This document shows, piece after piece, positions 178 to 25,829 of a stretch of DNA of 44,851 nucleotides. The notes below the pieces were generated by a model. The model made no database searches, was not told the origin of the DNA, and saw only the letters and a list, made by a program, of their open reading frames with translations. The position numbers were made by a program, and so were the translations under genes. Origin of the DNA: Chloroflexota bacterium (lineage in GTDB: Bacteria > Chloroflexota > Anaerolineae > Promineifilales > Promineifilaceae); contig JAHDEB010000024.1 of the NCBI GenBank assembly GCA_020629055.1, positions 1,761 to 46,611 of the forward strand, in the 5' to 3' direction. Every line of letters starts with the position of its first letter. Position 1 is the stretch's first letter.

Positions 178-3100
178 TTAATGTCTAGCAAAAACTTCGG
201 GGCAAATATCTTGAAAGATTATCCAATCTGGATAATCTTCTAGAATAGATTTTGAGATCGCTTTCACTCCAAACTTTTTTAAAGTTGATTTAACAAGAAT
301 TTCAATCTCCCTATCCGTTTGATTTTTCTGGAGGCCTTGGCGGCTCTTCAAAGCAGAAGCAAAGTAATTCAGTGAAGTTTCAAACACATCGTCTATCAAA
401 TGTGCTCTGCCTAATAACAGCAGTGATTTTGCTTGACCGGCAATATTATTTAATTCTTTAAATCTAACCATGCATTGATCTAAAAAATAAAGAGCTTGTC
501 GCTTGTCTTTTGCGGCAATTCGATTCCACCCCAAATTTTGATAAGCAATTGCAATTGCTATTTGATCACCATAATTCTGTGCAAATCGTAAAACCTCGTC
601 AAGGTATCCCGCGCTTTTTTCAAATTGATTTTGTTCAATAGAAATCAAACTTAGGTTGTTCAAAATATTAATAATAGCCTGTGCATCCCCTATTTTTTCA
701 TTTAAAAAATATGCTTTTTCAAGCACATCAGTTGCCTTTGTATACTCTTTTTCGTTCAGGAAAACAACACCTTGATTATTGAGAGACTGAGCCAAACGTT
801 TAAGGTTATTCGTCTTTTCCCAATGCTTTGCCGCCTTTCCTAACAACTTAATTGCGTCATCTGGTTGGCTTTGATGATAACTAACAATGCCTAGGTGATA
901 TTGAGTGGAAGCCACAATTTCAAGTAAATCAAGGTTCTTTGCATCTTCCCTAACTACGTCAAGAAGTTTAGTTGCCTCATCATACTTTTCTGTCCGCCAA
1001 AGCAATTCCCCCCAAGACAACCCCATTAAACCTTCAATCGCGGGAAAATTATTGGTAGATTCAAAATATCGGTCAATAAGTCCCAACGCCGAGTCATATT
1101 CAGACATGCGAACCAGGGCGCGAATTTGATGGGTGCGCAGGGTTAAAACAGTTTCATCGGCCGACCCTCTCTCTTTTTCAAAAACCCCAGCCGTTGTCGC
1201 AAAGCGTTCGGCCGCCTCGCGATAATAGCCGCGCAGTTCATAAAACGTTGACAACGGCTCGATGGCGGGCAAAAGCAGATCACTGTCTAGCTGATCTGCG
1301 GCCGTTTGCCACGCCGAACGAATGTTGTCTAAATCCTGCGTGATTTCGGCCGCGGGGTCCTGCGGCCGAGGGCCTATTAAATCTTTCGCCTGTTGAGCGA
1401 CAAAGTTCAAATAGTAATAGCTGTGCCGATCTCGAACCCCTAACCCCGTAAACTCCATCCTTTTTTCAGCGGCAAACTGACGCACCAGTTCATGCAGGCT
1501 ATACCGGCCGCTCTCATCCCGTTGCAGCAGGGATTTTTCGGCCAATACATTCAGCAACACCACCGGACCGCCGGTCACTGTGTCGGCCGCGGCGGGCCAA
1601 AAGCCCCCTCGAAAAACGGCACACAATGCGAAGACCCGCTGTTCGTCAGCGGCTAACAGTGTCCATGAATTTTCAAAAACCGCCCGCATACTCTGATGCC
1701 GTTTGGGTATATCTCGAAAACGGACCGAAACCGTGTCAAACGATTGCTGAACTGACTTTAACAGATCAGACAAAGACTGTTGGCGCAAACCGGCCGCGGC
1801 TAATTCTAGTGCCAGTGGGACGCCGCCCAAAAGGTGGACCAGCTCGGTCACATGGGTGACGTGATCCTCGTCACCCAGTTCGAAATCGCCGGTTGCCCGC
1901 TGCGCCCGGTCGGTAAATAGAGCCACGGCCGGATTGTGAGATTGGCTATCGGCATCACCGATTTGATCGGGCAAAGTCAGCGGCTTTACCCTGTTCACAG
2001 TCTCCGCCATAAAACCAAGCGGCTCGCGAGACGAAGCTAAAATCATAAGATCTGGAGAAGCCTCGAGCAGCTTTATCAAAAGATTTGCACCCTCTAACAC
2101 ATGTTCGAAGTTGTCAAAAATCAGGAACAGATGCCGATTTTTGACGTGGGTCAGCAGCAGATCTACGGTCGGCGTATTGCTGCTAAGAGACAGGCCGATG
2201 GTTTCGCAAACTAAGGTGGCGATGGCATTCTCAAGCTGATCAGCGTCGTCGCCGGCCGGTACAACCACAAGCGGCACCAGCCAAACACCGTCTTTAAAAC
2301 TGCTGTTAAGACGACGGCCGACCTCAAGTGACAGCCGTGATTTCCCAATCCCCCCTTCACCGACCAGGGTTACGAGCCTTTTGTGAGGGTCATCGACCAA
2401 TCGAATTAGTTTTTTGATGTCTTGGTCTCGGCCGAAATACGAAGTCGTTTCGGCTGGCAAGTTGTTGGGTGAAAATTCTCGGGGTCCGGTCGTCGTGACC
2501 ACCTTGGTAATTTCATGCCCTTCAACGGCCGATTCTCCCTTTTCGATTTGCTGGGCCAGTTCTAAGGTTTCAGGAGTGGGTTCAGCGCCCAACTCATCCC
2601 ATAAAATTGTTTTGCACCGTTCAAACTGGGCCAGCGCGGCCGACCGTTGCCCGCTGTTGGCGAGAGCCAACATTAAATGACGATGGGCGGATTCTCGCCA
2701 AGGTTCAAGCGTTAATAGCCGTGAACCATATTCACGCACCAGTTCGTGCCGCCCCTGAGCCTGGTAGCTCTCTATAATAATGTCTAACACGAGCTGAGCC
2801 TGCTGCAACAGCCGCTCCCGTTGCAGAATCATCCATTCCTCAAACACATAGGCCTCATCCATTTGGATACCTGCCAGCAGGTCACCTTGGTATAGGTCGG
2901 CCGCCTCTTTTAAACGTTTGAGGCAGGTGCTGCAATAGTGAATGTCTTCATGATCATGGGTTTCGCACGTGCTCAGCAGCTGGCGAAAACGGGTTACATC
3001 GCAGAACACGCCGTCTAATGCGGCCGGCTTAAAGCGGATCGTTTGGTTGCTGATTTCAAATAGCTGATCACTTATTTTCCCCCCAGCCGCCTTGTCGATC

Positions 3101-3327
3101 GCCTTGCGCATGCGTGACAAATTAATTCGGAAGTTTTGCCGGGCGGTCTTTTCATCGCTTTCGCTCCATAAAAGGGTTGCAAGTCGGTCACGTGGATGCG
3201 CCAGTCCGTCAGCTCCAGATTCAACAGCAAGATATGCGATCAAAGCTCGTATTTTATTGGTCCGAAATTGGATATCCGTGGTGTGATGTGTGCTGCGGAA
3301 CGACCCCAATAGAGTCAGCTTAAGCAA
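178..3327 (-). CDS. SARP/AfsR-like regulator (winged helix-BTAD-ATPase-TPR)
   Basis: Probable transcriptional activator of 1049 residues. Residues 1-100 form an OmpR-type winged helix, and about 105-260 the BTAD helical domain (YQGDLLAGI, EEWMILQRERLL) that together define SARP regulators. An NB-ARC/STAND ATPase follows: P-loop GEGGIGKS at 323-330, Walker B LIFDNFE near 402-408, an ASSRE sensor motif and a GVPLALELA motif. About 690-1000 are TPR repeats, probably the signal- or partner-binding part. The start is TTG with AAAGGGG about 10 nt upstream. It diverges from a small gene, and 11-bp-period direct repeats of the kind SARPs bind lie between them. The 3' third (178-1140, the TPR part) is visibly more AT-rich and has no CGGCCG, while 1141-3030 has about 16, suggesting a mosaic origin. 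The trigger is unknown. Confidence 0.9.
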   Translation of the reverse strand: MLKLTLLGSFRSTHHTTDIQFRTNKIRALIAYLAVESGADGLAHPRDRLATLLWSESDEKTARQNFRINLSRMRKAIDKAAGGKISDQLFEISNQTIRFKPAALDGVFCDVTRFRQLLSTCETHDHEDIHYCSTCLKRLKEAADLYQGDLLAGIQMDEAYVFEEWMILQRERLLQQAQLVLDIIIESYQAQGRHELVREYGSRLLTLEPWRESAHRHLMLALANSGQRSAALAQFERCKTILWDELGAEPTPETLELAQQIEKGESAVEGHEITKVVTTTGPREFSPNNLPAETTSYFGRDQDIKKLIRLVDDPHKRLVTLVGEGGIGKSRLSLEVGRRLNSSFKDGVWLVPLVVVPAGDDADQLENAIATLVCETIGLSLSSNTPTVDLLLTHVKNRHLFLIFDNFEHVLEGANLLIKLLEASPDLMILASSREPLGFMAETVNRVKPLTLPDQIGDADSQSHNPAVALFTDRAQRATGDFELGDEDHVTHVTELVHLLGGVPLALELAAAGLRQQSLSDLLKSVQQSFDTVSVRFRDIPKRHQSMRAVFENSWTLLAADEQRVFALCAVFRGGFWPAAADTVTGGPVVLLNVLAEKSLLQRDESGRYSLHELVRQFAAEKRMEFTGLGVRDRHSYYYLNFVAQQAKDLIGPRPQDPAAEITQDLDNIRSAWQTAADQLDSDLLLPAIEPLSTFYELRGYYREAAERFATTAGVFEKERGSADETVLTLRTHQIRALVRMSEYDSALGLIDRYFESTNNFPAIEGLMGLSWGELLWRTEKYDEATKLLDVVREDAKNLDLLEIVASTQYHLGIVSYHQSQPDDAIKLLGKAAKHWEKTNNLKRLAQSLNNQGVVFLNEKEYTKATDVLEKAYFLNEKIGDAQAIINILNNLSLISIEQNQFEKSAGYLDEVLRFAQNYGDQIAIAIAYQNLGWNRIAAKDKRQALYFLDQCMVRFKELNNIAGQAKSLLLLGRAHLIDDVFETSLNYFASALKSRQGLQKNQTDREIEILVKSTLKKFGVKAISKSILEDYPDWIIFQDICPEVFARH

Positions 3328-3591
3328 GGTTGATTCGCCCCTTTTTCTATTTCCCCGTTTTCGAAGCTGGTGTCACGACTAGGGTGATATGATCGATAAA
3401 CCAGCCTAAAAAGTCGTGACTTTAAGTGTTTCTTTGATTTTTCAATCTATCACATCATGCTGGTTGAAACACTACCCCCTCTTTATAGAACATGATACCT
3501 GCTTAAATCGGTATCGGCAAAGAAAAAATTACGTTTCGAGTGTCAGGTTTCTATCAAGGATCCTATGCTTATACGGCTCACAAAATTAACT

Positions 3592-3643
3592 CCGTATCCA
3601 ACCAAATTAATTTGGCTACGCTTCGGTCACAGATTGGATACGG
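3592..3643 (+). promoter_or_regulatory. Candidate SARP operator upstream of the 121-aa gene
   Basis: Three related octamers lie exactly 11 bp apart: TTGGCTAC (3612), TCGGTCAC (3623, a weak match) and TTGGATAC (3634). SARP activators are known to bind heptamer direct repeats with 11-bp period just upstream of the -10 box. TTATTC at 3651 is a poor but correctly placed -10. The last copy also forms a 10-bp inverted repeat with CCGTATCCAA at 3592-3601, and the spacer contains the perfect palindrome CCAAATTAATTTGG (3602-3615). The rest of the 430-bp gap (3328-3758) shows nothing else recognisable. Confidence 0.45.
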
Positions 3644-3758
3644 CCTTCAATTATTCTTCTAATCGTCAAGCACAAACAAGCGCCCAACACAACTAAAGTG
3701 ACACCTTTTTTAAAAACAGTTATTGAAAATTCAATTTTAGAATTTCAGGAGAAAAATT

Positions 3759-4124
3759 ATGACCCACGCAATTTCAACCCAAAGCACTTTAATCAGCAAT
3801 GTAATCAGCAACACGTTTGTTATCAGCCGCCCCAATAAAACGATGTCGGCCGATAAAGCGGTAGATCAAGCGTTCAGCGCCTTTGCAATGCGATACCCAT
3901 CGTGGGTCGATGCTCTGTTTGATCAACATTTTGTCGACCAACATCTGAAACCGGTTGTCAAAACAAATTGGAAACGGGGCCGGTCAATTACAGCCCTTGA
4001 TGTTGCCATGCTTTGGGATACTCAGTTTAGTGATAAAAACTTTGACCGCCGTCGTCAAAACCTTGCCGAGTTAAGAGATGCGGCCGGGCTGTTTATCAGC
4101 GAATTAAAGACGCGAATGAGATAG
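3759..4124 (+). CDS. Small hypothetical protein (121 aa)
   Basis: Not recognised. The start is supported by AGGAG seven bases upstream of the ATG. There is no signal peptide or membrane segment, so it is probably cytoplasmic. The first 30 residues are Ser/Thr/Asn-rich and look disordered. The rest is predicted mostly helical, with several aromatic/basic patches (RYPSWVDALFDQHF, KTNWKRGRS, DRRRQNLAELRDAA) and ends in a basic helix. The order helix, TALDVAMLWD, basic helix is loosely compatible with a nucleic-acid or protein adaptor role, but no family can be named. It is a single gene with its own upstream repeats and a downstream terminator. The divergent SARP regulator is the obvious candidate controller. 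Confidence 0.75.
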   Translation: MTHAISTQSTLISNVISNTFVISRPNKTMSADKAVDQAFSAFAMRYPSWVDALFDQHFVDQHLKPVVKTNWKRGRSITALDVAMLWDTQFSDKNFDRRRQNLAELRDAAGLFISELKTRMR

Positions 4125-4224
4125 AAAACGACCGTTGAAACATGGTCCAATTACCGTGGACCGTATCTAATCTATTCTTCTCCACCTCTCGGGACTGTGG
4201 ACAGACGGGCACGAGATAAAACAG

Positions 4225-4266
4225 AAAGAGTGGCTGGAATCAAACGATTCTTCACCACTCTTTTTT
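4225..4266 (+). terminator. Rho-independent terminator of the 121-aa gene
   Basis: AAAGAGTGG and GAATC pair with GATTC and CCACTCTTT around a CAAAC-type loop, with an internal bulge, followed by six T residues (4261-4266). A second inverted repeat, GGTCCA (4144-4149) with TGGACC (4157-4162), lies just after the stop codon without a T-run. Confidence 0.75.
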
Positions 4267-4312
4267 GGTCATATCAATTCAATTTTGGCGAAGCAACACC
4301 CATTAAATTTTC

Positions 4313-4347
4313 TTGGATACGGATTGGATACACCTATTCGATATGAT
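4313..4347 (+). promoter_or_regulatory. Candidate SARP-dependent promoter of the tectonin gene
   Basis: TTGGATAC occurs at 4313 and again at 4324, an exact 11-bp period. TATGAT follows at 4342-4347, about 10-11 bp after the second copy. The 10-mer TTGGATACGG at 4313 is identical to the one at 3634 and, inverted, at 3592. Such direct repeats replacing a -35 box are typical of SARP-activated promoters. Transcription would start near 4354, which excludes the longer in-frame ATG at 4313. Confidence 0.5.
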
Positions 4348-4378
4348 CTATTTATCGAACAAACATAGGAGAAAAAAA

Positions 4379-5338
4379 ATGACTGTGAAAAAATTTAAAT
4401 TGATCAAAGTGGGCAAACAAGGTGGTATGTGGGCTATCGGCAAAGATGATGATCGAATCTACAATTTGGTCGGTGATGCCGGCGTGGTGAGCTGGATTCC
4501 AGACAAGACAGGCAAAGGGGTTTCAATCGCTGCTGGCTTGCATAATCTACTTTGGGCAGTCAATAAAAATGGAGAGATTTGGCGCAAAACCAACGCAGGT
4601 CCTTATACCCCGGAGGGAGAGTGGAACAAAATCACAACCAAATCTGGCAAAAACGATGCGAAATCAATCGCGGCCGACAATGATGGACATGTCTGGTACA
4701 CCCAAACGGATGACAAAATCTTCCGCTCGAAAGATCCCGTCACCGACGAAAAAGCGCCAACTTGGATCGATGGTCCGGAGGGTGGAAAATCAGACAACCT
4801 AGCCCCTTTTAATAGCTCGATTCTTTATTGCACCAACAAAGCTGGTCAAATTTGGCTTCATGCAAATAACGTTTGGACAGAATTAAAAACAAAAAGCAAT
4901 CGGCCAGACGCAAGCATGGTCTCAGTGGGCAATGATCAAACAATCGCCTATGTTGATAAAAGTGGGTCGATTTTTAGATTTAAAGTTCCAAATGAAGGTG
5001 CCGCATTGCCCGATGTAATCGAGTGGGAAAACCGACCGATGGGCAAAGTCAGCATGGTGGCTGTTTACAACAAAGATCTAATTTGGTGCCTAAATACAAA
5101 AGGGGAAGTATGGCGCACGATGCAAAATGGCGTATGGGCTCAGTTGCGCGAAACAACCGGCCGGGTTTGGCGTTACACCGTGAAGCCAAACGACACGCTA
5201 AACGCAGTTGTGATGAAAGAATTCAAACTGACCAAAGCGGAAGACATTACTCGGCAAGCTGACTTAATTGCAGGGCAAAGTGGGCTTTTAAACCCGAATA
5301 TTTTGAAAGTAGGCGACGTTTTACAACTGTATCTATAG
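4379..5338 (+). CDS. Tectonin-type beta-propeller protein with C-terminal LysM
   Basis: A 319-residue protein. Residues about 1-260 are tectonin/tachylectin-like propeller repeats, each with a Trp-rich core (MWAIGKDDRIY-, LLWAVNKNGEIWRK-, HVWYTQTDDKIFRS-, QIWLHANNVW-, LIWCLNTKGEVWR-like). Tectonins bind glycans or lipopolysaccharide-like surfaces. The last 55 residues (RYTVKPNDTL to GDVLQLYL) match LysM, a peptidoglycan/chitin-binding fold. No signal peptide or membrane segment is visible, odd for two surface-binding modules; it could be released by lysis, exported by another route, or act inside the cell. ATG 4379 is chosen because AGGAG lies 7 nt upstream and the candidate promoter lies downstream of the alternative start at 4313. 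It has its own terminator. Confidence 0.85.
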   Translation: MTVKKFKLIKVGKQGGMWAIGKDDDRIYNLVGDAGVVSWIPDKTGKGVSIAAGLHNLLWAVNKNGEIWRKTNAGPYTPEGEWNKITTKSGKNDAKSIAADNDGHVWYTQTDDKIFRSKDPVTDEKAPTWIDGPEGGKSDNLAPFNSSILYCTNKAGQIWLHANNVWTELKTKSNRPDASMVSVGNDQTIAYVDKSGSIFRFKVPNEGAALPDVIEWENRPMGKVSMVAVYNKDLIWCLNTKGEVWRTMQNGVWAQLRETTGRVWRYTVKPNDTLNAVVMKEFKLTKAEDITRQADLIAGQSGLLNPNILKVGDVLQLYL

Positions 5339-6516: not shown

Positions 6517-6581
6517 CAGCCTGTTTTCAGGTCTTGTTAATTTGTTCAAATGCATCGACAAACAAGATGAAGGAGACAGCT

Positions 6582-6782
6582 TTGAAGCGAACAAAATCAG
6601 GTGAATTAACCGCTCGGCCGAACAGCAATCGCAAATCATATCTGATTCGCTTTTGGCGCAAAAGTGAAAATGACCGCTGGCAGGTCACACTCGTTTCGGC
6701 CGAGGGTGAATCAAAAATCCACTTTGCAAATTTAGAATCATTTAAAGGGGGCTTGAACAGCTTCCTGAAAGATGGCAATTAA
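6582..6782 (+). CDS. Small basic hypothetical protein (66 aa)
   Basis: TTG 6582 is the likely start because AAGGAG (6570-6575) sits six bases upstream. An in-frame ATG at 6567 overlaps that ribosome site, and a still longer frame from 6510 overlaps the previous gene. The product is basic at its N-terminus (KRTKSGELTARPNSNRKSY), followed by a predicted beta-rich part (YLIRFWRKSENDRWQVTLVS, then KIHFANLESFKGGLNSFL). The pattern beta strands plus a final helix ending in FL suggests a small cytoplasmic fold. It is not recognised. It lies 65 bp after the Ig-like secreted protein in the same direction and could share its transcript. Confidence 0.6.
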   Translation: MKRTKSGELTARPNSNRKSYLIRFWRKSENDRWQVTLVSAEGESKIHFANLESFKGGLNSFLKDGN

Positions 6783-20282: not shown

Positions 20283-23200
20283 TTAAATTGGTTTTTTCTT
20301 GAACCGATCCTCTGATCGCATGATGGCTTCCTCGATATCTGAAACCCGAACCGGCTTGCTCACATAATCGTCCATTCCGGCCGCTAGGAATTTCTCTCTG
20401 TCCCCTGTCATCGCGTTCGCAGTCATCGCGATAATCAACGGGCGCGACTCACCCCATTTTTCATTAATTATTTTTGTTGCCTCAACACCATCCATTTCAG
20501 GCATTTGAACATCCATAAAAATAACATCGTATGGGGCCTGCTCTAACATCGCAATCGCTTCTGCCCCGTTTTCTGCAATATCGACACCAAATCCCAACCG
20601 TTTAAACATGTTAACCGCGACTTTCTGGTTTACTTTATTATCTTCAGCCAGCAAAATCTGAATGTCAAACAGTTCACCAAGCACCGGTTTATCTTCAGCC
20701 TTTGGCGCTAAGAATCGTTGAGCGATATGCTCTTTTCCGGTAAACGAGTATGAAAGTGCCTTAAAAAACTCTTCTTGTTTCGGTGGTTTAGAAACAAATC
20801 GAGAAGTCCCAAGCATCTCTTTTTTATTGGGCTTATTCATGAGCGGGGCCGACAAAATTAGGGGTGGGGCTGAATGCCCTTTCAGCAGCTCATTCAAAAT
20901 CGCTTCCGAATCTACATCATGTATTTCTAGATAGTCTAAATCTAGGAAAATCGCATCAATATCATGCCCAGCTTCCAATAACATCATAAATGAGGCTGGC
21001 CCAGACTCAGATCTTACAACTTGGATGCCCCAATCATTTAACTGGTCTGCCAACAAATTTTGGCTGGCGACGTTATCATTAATCAGCAGCACTTGCTTCC
21101 CTTTCATCCTGCTAAGCAATTGCAGGTCTAAATGGGATGAGTTCTCAGCGGTAGCTCGGGCTTTGATAGTAAACGAAAAGGTCGATCCCTTGCCCGCTTC
21201 ACTTTCAACCCACATCTCACCATCCATCAGTTCGCTCAACTGCTTACTAATGGCGAGCCCAAGCCCTGTCCCACCGAATTTTCGGGTTGTCGAGGTGTCT
21301 ACCTGGCTAAAAGACTTAAACAATCGATCCATACGATCGGCCGGAATGCCGATGCCTGAGTCTTCTACAGCAAATTGGAGCGTCATCGGTTGTTCGTTTG
21401 TGACGGCAATAACGCGCAAAGTCACTTGACCCTCAGAAGTAAATTTAATCGCGTTTGAAAGCAAGTTAACGATAATCTGCCTTAACCGGGTGACATCACC
21501 CTCGATTTCCTCAGGCACACTTTTGTCATAATCTAGAAGCAGCTCTAGCCCTTTTTCAAACGCTTTTGGCGCGATTAAATCTAAAACTTCTTCTAGACTG
21601 CGTCTTAGGTTAAACGGCTCATTTTCAAGCTCCATCTTGCCCGATTCGATTTTAGAGAAGTCCAAAATTTCGTTGATAATTGTTAGAAGCGACTCTCCAC
21701 TATTTTTAATCGTTTCAACAAAACTAACTTGCTCTGGATTCAGGTCCGTATCGACCAATAGGCTAGCCATCCCGATAACCCCATTCATCGGTGTACGAAT
21801 TTCATGGCTCATATTCGCCAAGAAATCGCTCTTGGCTTGTGCGGCCGCTTCGGCCGCCTCTTTCCCTTCTCTCATCGCCTCTTCAGCTCTCTTTCTCGCA
21901 TCTATATCATAAATGCTGCCTAATGTAGAATTTTCACCAAAATAGGAGAAGTTCTTCAGCATCAATTCTCCCCAGAAAGAATCTCCATCCCTTTTTCCGA
22001 TTATTAGTTCTTGCCGTTCAACAAAGCCAAAGCTGTTTAATTCATCTGTAACCGTACCGCCTGAATCTTCATCAAAATAGAGGTTACGCAACAAATCTTC
22101 GCGGTGATCATCGGGGCCATTCCCCATCAAATTACGCATCGCTTCATTAGAAAAACGGATCGAACGATCATTTTGCCCCGTGATGGCGATAGGCACTGGC
22201 AAAACGGCCAAGATAGAGCCTAATTGCTCCTCACTCTCTTTGAGCTTCCGCTCATTCTCTAACCGCTCGGTCAGGTCAAGACATGTCGCAATCAAGACAT
22301 CTTTCCCTTTCCAGCTCATAAAATGAGCCGTCGTCAAAGCTTCAAAGTGCTCGCCCGACTGTTTTTTGTAAATTTGATGAACGTTTCTCGCTAACCCAGA
22401 TTTGTTGAGCTCTTCCCAAAGTTTATCTCGCCACAACTCATCAAAGTAGATATCTTTCCCTTGAATTTTACTTTTGAAGTCTTCGATATCAGCATCAAAA
22501 ACCTCAGCAAAGGCAAGGTTGACGTAATCAAAAATACCATTCCTGTCAGATATCGATACCGGAACCGGCAGCTGATCTAAAACCTGACGAATTTGCTCTT
22601 CGCTTGCTTTAATTTTTTCTTGCTGTTCGAGCAATTTTCGTCGCGCTTCAATACGTTCGGTAATATCTCGAGCAAAAGCAAAAATATATTCCTCCCCATC
22701 AAACTCCTGAAAAGATGAAGTGACTTCAATGGGTATTTTAGTTCCATCTTTATGCAACTGCATACCTTCATCGGTAATAAATCTTTTTTGCTTGATATGT
22801 TCCCAAATTTCATCCCATTTGGTTTTCATAGAAGGGTTTAAGTCGAATATGGTTGACGAGAGAAACTCTTCTTGGGTATAGCCTAATCCAGTCCATGCAG
22901 TTTGATTGGCCCATGTAATTGACCCATCCCGAGCCAAACGGAAAATTCGGTCCCCCGCATTTTCAATCGAAAATTCAGCGATCTTTAGCTTGCTTTCAGC
23001 CAGCTTACGTTCTCGAATATCCTTCACAAAGGCAAATATATATTCTTCCCCATCAAATTCTTGAAAAGATGAGGTGACTTCTACCGGTCGTGGTATCCCG
23101 TCTTTGGTGTATTGTGTCGCTTCATCGACAACAACCCCATGCTCCTTCACATTCTCCCAAAGACTTGTCCAAATCGGCTCCACTTCAGAATTTAGGTCGA

Positions 23201-25025
23201 AAATCGATAAGTTTAAAAACTCTTCTTGGGTATAGCCAAGACTGGTCCAAGCGGATTTATTAGCATAGCGGATAGACCCATCCCTAGAAAATCGGAAGAT
23301 GCCGTCTCCTGCATTTTCGATGGAAAATTTAGCGATTTTAAGTTCATTCTCCGCCTTTTTCCGATTGGTAATATCCATCGCCTGAGCAACAACGATCTGC
23401 TTCCCATTGTAGTCCAAAAAATCAAGATGTAGCTCGATAGGAAAACTTTCCCCATTTTTTGGAGTAATCAGAGACTCGAGTACCTGACTTCCAGTTTTTT
23501 CTAAATATGCCCAAAGATTTACATATTTCTTTTCATTTAGAGTCGGGTCAATTTCATAAACATACTTTTGCAATATCTCGTCTTGTGTATAGCCAATTCT
23601 GTCAATAACCGTTTGGTTTACACCGATGATTTTTGCATCTTGGTTCACCCAGAAAAGCATATGGGTTGAATTATCGATTGAAAACTGAGTAAGTCGGGCA
23701 GCTTCCTCAGCAGCTCGACGTTCTGTAATATCAATGAGAGTACTCTCATTGAATAAATGCTGATTGTTTTCATCCCGAATGACTCGAACCCGATCCTCGA
23801 CCCAAAACAATGATCCATCTTTACCAACGAGCTGGTACTCAACGGTAAACTCTTCAATGCCCTCTTTTAAATTGTTTAAACCTTGTTTAAATACCCGTTG
23901 GAGGTCATTGGGGTGGATCAGTGAATGAAGCGGCTTCTCTTGAACAGTAAATTCTTCAGGCGAATATCCAAATTGCTTGATATTAGACGACATATATTTT
24001 ACCGTCCAATTTCTGTCTGCAAGCCAACGAACTAAAATAACAGGGCTATTTTCAACGACTTTATTGGCAAGCTCTAGTTCATTTCTTTGTGCTTCAACCT
24101 CTTTTAATATTTTCTCTTGCTCTGCGAATAACAGTCGATTATGAATTGACCCAGAAGCTTGGGTAATAATCGATTCCATCAGATCGAGAGAGTCATTCGA
24201 CAGTTGAATCCCCTTTTCCATCACGGCGATACCGACCGTTCCAATTACTTCGTCTGAAACGATGATAGGCAGAATGGCTAAAGAATAAATGTTTTGGTCT
24301 CGTAATACCCGATTGATCGCAACCGAGTCATCAGCATGTTGCACATCGGTGACCAAAACCCGTTTTTTCTCGTCTAAAACGAGTTTGCTCTCAATATTCT
24401 CTTCAAGATCAATTTCCTCCCCTACCGTGTCGGTTGGAACCAGTGAGGCATATTTTTCTGAAATAACGGTTAATGATTTCTGATCTTTGTTGAGGAGGGC
24501 AACGCCAACTTTGCCAACCCCATCAATCTGTAACAAGCTTTCGACAACCACTTCAAGACATGATTCTAGATCGGTAGCGGCCGTCACAGACGAAATGACG
24601 GAGTTGATCAATGCCAGCTCACCACTTTTCTTATTCACTTCTACAAGGATGTTTTCAAGCTCGGCCGTACGCTCAAGCACCCGCTGCTCAAGTTCCTCCA
24701 TCGTTTTTTCCAAATCTTGGTTGACTTGGAAAAGTTCAAGGCTTTTTTCTTCTAGAAGCTTCTCAGCCTCTTTACGAGCGGCTCGCAAGCGGTCAAGTCT
24801 CTTTTGAATCTTATCGATTCTCTCAAGGCTCTTCTCAAGGTCGGCCGTACGATCAGATACCCGCTGCTCGAGTTCTTCAGTTGCCCGTTCCAGATCTTGG
24901 TTAAGGTAAAAAAGCTCTAGGCTTTTTTCTTCCAAGAGCTGCTCTGCCTCTTTGCGAGCCTCCCGAAGGCGCTCTAGTTTTCTTTGTATTTTCTGATCTT
25001 TTTGGGCTAAGAGGGAGTCTGCCAT
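20283..25025 (-). CDS. Soluble hybrid histidine kinase (GAF, six PAS, two receivers), H-NOX partner
   Basis: A 1580-residue sensor kinase without membrane segments. Residues 1-135 are a coiled coil containing a 60-residue tandem duplication ([20 protein letters not shown] and a near copy). GAF is at about 138-300. Six PAS domains lie between about 312 and 1045, of which the third and fourth (about 560-800) are close duplicates. HisKA has the phospho-acceptor His1074 in [11 protein letters not shown]. HATPase runs about 1175-1285, with NAIKF, DSGIGIP and GGTGLGL boxes. A first receiver (1306-1420) looks degenerate. The second (1453-1575) has Asp1505 in [11 protein letters not shown] and a KP pair. 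The H-NOX gene lies just upstream (48 bp), the arrangement of NO-responsive H-NOX/kinase pairs. The PAS region has no CGGCCG over 2.7 kb. Output presumably passes to a phosphotransfer protein elsewhere. Confidence 0.93.
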
Positions 25026-25073
25026 AATGATCTATGAATAAAATGAAGTGCCAATATTTTTTGAATAAAGCAA

Positions 25074-25637
25074 CTAATCTGCTGCTACACTTTCAGGGAC
25101 TTTAACAAGCGTAAATTTAGCCTCTGTCCCATTGGCTTCATTTAAGTCTTCGCGATGAATTTCAATTGACTCACCAAAGTGCTCTAAGCATCCCATCAAC
25201 AGCCCTTCTGCAAAGTCTGCAAATGGTCGTTTAGACGAATAAATCATGACCAAGGTTTCGTCATTCGGATATTCGTAATCAAATTTTGGCAATTCCGCAT
25301 CTGGGTAGAGCTTACGTACCTCCACATGAATATACTGATCGATACTTTTTAGGAAATCGAATGTCCCCGATACATCTTCAAAGAAGGTACTGTAAAGGGC
25401 GTTAAACCGGCCAAACAGATGCTTTCCATAAGCCTTCAACAAAGTTGGAATATCTAATCCGGTCTTTTCGCTTAAAGCAACGACCATGGTGACCATTTCG
25501 TTGTGATCGTAAGTCCCGACAGACGTATAAGCTCCGCCTGAAGGCAAATCACTTTCATCAACAATATCTTCTGCGATTTCCCAGCCAAACTTATCCTCTA
25601 CCATTTCCAAAAACTCGGTAAAAACCATGCCTTTCAT
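25074..25637 (-). CDS. H-NOX heme-binding gas sensor
   Basis: A 187-residue heme nitric oxide/oxygen-binding protein. Family landmarks are all present: the start MKGMVFTEFLEMVEDKFG, proximal heme ligand His104 in YIHVEVRKLYPDAELP, and the propionate-binding motif Y133-S-S135-K-R137. The final helices and strands match the HNOB domain, with no extra domain. The distal pocket Tyr that stabilises O2 in some members cannot be judged here. An upstream in-frame ATG at 25727 adds a non-homologous 30-residue stretch; ATG 25637 has GGAG 8 nt upstream and begins the domain exactly. The hybrid kinase follows 48 bp downstream, so H-NOX most likely binds the gas ligand and modulates that kinase. Confidence 0.95.
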   Translation of the reverse strand: MKGMVFTEFLEMVEDKFGWEIAEDIVDESDLPSGGAYTSVGTYDHNEMVTMVVALSEKTGLDIPTLLKAYGKHLFGRFNALYSTFFEDVSGTFDFLKSIDQYIHVEVRKLYPDAELPKFDYEYPNDETLVMIYSSKRPFADFAEGLLMGCLEHFGESIEIHREDLNEANGTEAKFTLVKVPESVAAD

Positions 25638-25829
25638 ATCAAATGTCTCCAAAATTAGTTTATAAAATGCGAATAGGTGACAAAAATACACCTTCGGCAG
25701 GTTGATTCTGGTGGAAAACCGAGGCAATCACAATGAGCAAAAGTTCCCAATAAGGACGAAAGTAGTAGGTTCCTGAATACTCTTTTTCTATCTAACTAAG
25801 ATCCCTGTAAAGTCGAAACCGCTTGAACG

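Follow-up and report, generated by a model that had tools for sequence, protein, structure and literature searches.

Two repeat arrays beside a large SARP gene

The window, by which we mean the whole 44,851-nucleotide stretch of Chloroflexota DNA analyzed here, lies on contig C109 of a 6.6-Mb, 82% complete assembly. It carries the gene of a large SARP regulator, P0001, and divergent from it two arrays of direct repeats, sites A and B, each followed by a gene on the opposite strand. The features are as follows.

178..3327, minus strand: large SARP regulator P0001 (winged helix, BTAD, STAND/NB-ARC ATPase, TPR), the proposed owner of the sites
3592..3601, minus strand: lone TTGGATACGG half-site, inverted so that it faces the SARP gene, with neither a partner repeat nor a -10 at the right distance
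3612..3641, plus strand: site A, TTGGCTAC / TCGGTCAC / TTGGATAC, period 11
3652..3657, plus strand: -10-like TATTCT of site A, at the same spacing in relatives
3759..4124, plus strand: 121-aa gene P0002, proposed target of site A
4223..4265, plus strand: terminator-like hairpin with a T run, between the two target genes
4313..4331, plus strand: site B, TTGGATAC-GGA-TTGGATAC, period 11
4342..4347, plus strand: -10-like TATGAT of site B
4379..5338, plus strand: tectonin-domain gene P0003 with a LysM-like tail below cutoff, proposed target of site B
6579..6782, plus strand: small YLLRxWR-family protein gene, with no readable operator here

P0001 has the build of a large AfsR-like SARP. An N-terminal OmpR-type winged helix is followed by a BTAD (Pfam match, 5.3e-26), the N-terminal 262 residues align with AfsR (8hvr, 1.9e-12) and with EmbR (2fez), and the C-terminal part consists of a STAND/NB-ARC ATPase and TPR. 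At the AfsR DNA-contact residues W74, R87, R92, R94 and K95, P0001 has W, R, R, R and K, while the residue aligned to T88 is I. Its named relatives come from Anaerolineae/Chloroflexota MAGs. No close orthologue was found in other members of the genus, where the best matches reach 32-38% identity, and the sites and their regulator therefore cannot be traced together. The genome carries about 18 SARPs; a second large one (BTAD and NB-ARC; G000:C109:1-1802, L026) lies directly downstream of P0001 in the same direction, just outside the window.

The sequence-only reading of this DNA placed a 121-aa gene and a tectonin-LysM gene next to a SARP-ATPase-TPR regulator. This description holds except for the LysM domain, which scores 14.1 bits against a Pfam cutoff of 20.9. 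Hairpins 3' of both the 121-aa gene and the tectonin gene suggest two separate transcription units. No biosynthetic gene cluster was present among the window genes scanned (178-26600), and with tectonin, 121-aa and peptidase-like genes as targets the regulator does not qualify as one of an antibiotic cluster. A contractile-injection or effector role for the tectonin gene was rejected for want of supporting neighbours. A model of the 121-aa protein gave no PDB fold match, and a homologue of the tectonin gene in another genome (G019) is without such repeats. Elsewhere in the window (20283-25727), a large PAS/GAF hybrid histidine kinase gene adjoins a gene for a haem-NO-binding (HNOB) protein, and the two form a probable NO-sensing pair.

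Read directly from positions 3580-4380, site A is TTGGCTAC-GCT-TCGGTCAC-AGA-TTGGATAC-N10-TATTCT, its copies matching TTGGATAC at 7/8 (3612-3619), 5/8 (3623-3630) and 8/8 (3634-3641) positions. At site B both copies (4313-4320 and 4324-4331) are perfect and are followed by N10 and TATGAT. The 11-bp period reported for the five copies is thus confirmed, with the reservation that the one at 3623 is poor. The proposed gap of about 10 bp to a possible -10 proved to be exactly 10 bp at both sites, so that the last copy begins 18 bp 5' of the hexamer, and this gap recurs in relatives. As expected of SARP operators, both sites are direct repeats with an 11-bp period, and the 3' repeat precedes the -10 by some 8-10 bp, within the -35 region, here and at a third site described below. 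The count of three TTGGATACGG copies in the 3592-4347 stretch was also correct, although the copy at 3592-3601 is inverted, on the minus strand.

In the window TTGGATA is more common than by chance, with 15 matches against 7.0 (sd 2.4) in shuffled sequence. Longer forms of the motif are rare: the assembly contains only 16 copies of TTGGATACGG, including the three in this stretch. The tandem 18-mer TTGGATACNNATTGGATA has a single exact copy in the whole assembly, plus one with a single mismatch on contig C54. When the -10 is included and up to 2 mismatches are allowed, the composite is found at sites A, B and C54 only, all three before genes; at 3 mismatches the matches fall to the level of the reversed control. 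Scatter at random positions in the genome, which would have counted against an operator, is therefore not what is seen.

Recurrence of the proposed operator in the genome and its relatives

The C54 site had been missed when sites A and B, both real, were first reported. It is intergenic, having a 214-aa gene on one side and a 707-aa gene on the other, and TATTCT follows at the same 18-bp distance. The 707-aa gene behind it has a HEIGH metallopeptidase-like motif and no Pfam family. A TPR fragment beside the site was considered as a P0001 orthologue and rejected (27% in parts); because its N-terminus is off the contig and it is not that orthologue, we did not count it as a SARP.

In a sister species (G049), one gene row unites orthologues of the 214-aa gene (64%) and the 121-aa gene (51%) with a GNAT gene. 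Repeats of 11-bp period with TTGGAAAC-like words and a TA box at +18 precede the GNAT and 121-aa genes, and TTGGTTAC repeats with a TA box at +18 follow the 214-aa gene, which is where the C54 site lies too. In G028 and G029, the gene for a distant homologue of the 121-aa protein likewise sits behind an 11-bp operator, with the word TGTCACG. Separately, an operator of the TTGGAAAC type before a 62-aa protein and an arginase/agmatinase-like gene is kept in two species (L118, L120; G049, G050), although no SARP was seen in the 9-16 kb retrieved there.

Is the association of such repeats with SARP genes general? With 1 mismatch permitted, the composite TTGGNWAC-N3-TTGGNWAC-N10-TANNNT matched at 30 places in 56 genomes of the order, against 7 for the reversed pattern, most of the 30 outside reading frames and pointing at a gene. 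In five cases (G010, G017, G029, G041, G051), found from the DNA pattern alone, a divergently transcribed SARP gene starts no more than about 120 bp away. A first motif-free test detected period 11 in 10/24 SARP upstream regions (other periods, 0-3), some of these loci having been fetched via the motif. In 80 further divergent SARP upstream regions from related genomes, picked by SARP homology only, period 11 was present in 47, other periods in 0-12, and shuffles gave 2.9 with a maximum of 7. Strong repeat pairs could be anchored on a common final CG in 49 of 104 SARP regions, and 34 of these have TAnnnT at the single offset 17, equivalent to 18 from TTGGATAC, where 0.55 were expected. The full composite faces away from the SARP in 35/104 regions and occurs in reverse orientation in none, against a Markov expectation of 0.04. 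Non-SARP upstream regions were dropped as a period control, contaminated as they were by the many loci fetched via the motif; reverse orientation, the Markov model and other periods served instead.

These results bear on the possibility that the repeats are fortuitous or non-regulatory, as copies of a dispersed element would be. In its favour, TTGGATA is plausible as an A+T-leaning word, and site A by itself is weak. Rarity, fixed distance and orientation toward the -10, and conservation in a sister species make coincidence scarcely credible, and for the class as a whole it is already refuted by the motif-free test (47/80). We rejected a random or dispersed repeat on orientation, spacing and conservation, and regard A and B as very probably SARP-type sites, in the absence of binding or transcript data.

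Many operators in relatives lead to the gene of a protein of about 65 residues (YLLRxWR..WRA..TGE..F..L..FL), often followed by that of a large secreted protein. The family is present in 20/80 SARP loci and in 44/52 genomes of the taxonomic family, its counts following those of SARPs (Spearman 0.72), and 11 of the 15 copies in the genus are <250 bp from a divergent SARP. A beta-beta-beta-alpha core is predicted, and neither Pfam, NCBIfam nor a model-based PDB fold search gave a match. The family is undescribed, and members occur also at L100, L101, L102, L111, L122, L125, L128 and other loci. Genome G007 (L100-L103) shows an extreme expansion, with about 56 SARP matches and 44 small-protein matches.

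Repeat words, recognition helices and ownership of the sites

The repeat word varies among SARPs (TGGATACG, TGGAAACG, TGGGGACG, TGGGTGCG, TCTCGACG, TTTTGACG, TCGTCACG and others), and SARPs with similar alpha3 helices have similar words to a degree that overall relatedness does not explain (partial Mantel r 0.36; 0/2000 permutations as high). Among 35 non-redundant SARPs, two residues account for the strongest helix couplings: the one aligned to AfsR R92, coupled to word positions 2-3 (z 7.7 and 8.2), and the one aligned to T88, coupled to position 4 (z 7.1). The cryo-EM structure of AfsR assigns the base contacts, at T-38 and position -36, to R92 and T88 (PMC10936776). The AfsR repeat is CGTT(T/C)ATCGNN (PMC10972967), and when aligned on the conserved CG these contacts correspond to word positions 2 and 4. 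Under stricter redundancy, the coupling of R92 with position 3 persists; the T88 signal is kept at a 50% cutoff and leaves the top list at 45%. Several residues outside the helix then couple with the word as strongly, making the covariation strong but not clean evidence.

Could the sites belong to an OmpR/PhoB-type response regulator instead? Pho boxes, too, consist of direct repeats with a period of 11 bp that take the place of a -35 and lie about 10 bp before the -10. This is the same class of geometry, and both kinds of regulator have an OmpR-type winged helix. AfsR and PhoP sites even overlap in Streptomyces (PMC10972967). The operators, however, are linked to SARP genes throughout the order and their words change with the SARP helix, on which grounds a Pho box was rejected; moreover, no phosphate genes were seen behind the operators inspected. 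We consider this assignment very unlikely.

Which SARP, then, owns the sites? P0001 is divergent to site A and of type I88/R92 in AfsR numbering. A single further I/R SARP has a readable operator; it comes from G041, in another genus, and faces a perfect copy of the word found in the window, TGGATACG. Of the about 18 SARPs in this genome, 13 were compared, and I occupies the T88 position in P0001 alone. Ownership by another SARP, such as that at C109:1-1802 or a V/R-type paralogue on C23, draws support from the number of SARPs in the genome, from several others that also carry R at the R92 position, and from the C54 site, which is not next to P0001. It is countered by the position and the I/R type of P0001, by the same word before the I/R SARP of G041, and by the residues V and S at the two contact positions of the second SARP, unlike those of SARPs facing TGG words. 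A paralogue as owner is thus improbable, and we infer that the sites probably belong to P0001. Among the points against P0001 are the imperfect repeats of site A and its distance from the start of the SARP gene, about 285 bp where most relatives have less. The lack of an orthologue through which sites and regulator could be traced, the comparison of only 13 SARPs in an 82% complete assembly, and the tectonin homologue of G019 without repeats count against it as well.

The proposal that these are SARP operators is thus upheld, by the 11-bp repeats facing SARPs order-wide, the covariation of word and helix, and the identical word before an I/R SARP of another genus. The repeats, their fixed spacing, their conservation, the SARP linkage and the word-helix covariation are observations. 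Sites A and B are best explained as activator sites of the adjacent large SARP P0001, an explanation in which we have good confidence; whatever goes past DNA anatomy and covariation, SARP binding and activation included, is inferred. By analogy with AfsR, two SARP protomers would sit side by side on the repeats, replacing the -35 contact, and may recruit sigma region 4 to the weak -10. The STAND/TPR part might gate activation by P0001 on a signal, the nature of which is unknown.

In related uncultured bacteria, many sister SARPs face repeats of this spacing but of another word, from which we infer that the operator words tell which genes each SARP switches on. Taken together, up to dozens of SARPs per genome in this Anaerolineae family, each with its own word and target (often the ~65-aa YLLRxWR protein and then a secreted protein), could constitute a set of AfsR-AfsS-like switches that control surface and secreted proteins in parallel and insulated from one another, with words predictable from two or three recognition-helix residues. 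We put the chances of this broader reading at about even.

Proposed SARP operators in Chloroflexota and known ones in Streptomyces

In Streptomyces, SARPs are familiar as antibiotic switches. The present computational analysis places their operator geometry in an order of uncultured Chloroflexota, ahead of genes other than antibiotic ones, and the many SARP paralogues of a genome use different words. The original finding is sound and extends further than it claimed, combining a known geometry with a new word, new targets, a new phylum and order-wide SARP-operator pairs. Our literature search found no papers on SARP operators in Chloroflexota, which is not proof that none exist. The pairs provide a natural data set for the SARP DNA-recognition code, and the words offer a way to find the target genes of each SARP with no need of cultures. 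A small-protein family, also new, is tied to SARPs.

With the Pho box of PhoB/PhoP, the sites share 11-bp repeats that replace the -35, while the word and the regulator class differ. The heptameric sites of DnrI, ActII-ORF4 and PimR likewise place two or three direct repeats at the -35, with an 11-bp period and a fixed distance to the -10 (PMC10972967), and site A, with three copies, resembles the three-repeat sites. Those systems differ from the present one, which has no antibiotic-cluster targets and combines large STAND/TPR regulators with many SARPs per genome and different words.

The closest parallel is AfsR and the afs box of the afsS promoter in Streptomyces coelicolor, where a large SARP with NOD and TPR likewise acts at two 11-bp direct repeats over the -35, at a matching distance to the -10 (PMC10936776). 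The geometry, first described as that known for SARP activators, is indeed that of the afs box, down to a CG close to where the contacted part of each repeat ends. AfsR also activates a small-protein gene, as is inferred here, and the pairing of SARPs with the ~65-aa protein recalls that of AfsR with its small target AfsS; no sequence relationship is claimed. The Chloroflexota system is set apart by its phylum, by the word TTGGATAC, by at least three sites, and by proposed targets that are tectonin, 121-aa and peptidase-like proteins, for which we claim no sequence similarity to AfsS.
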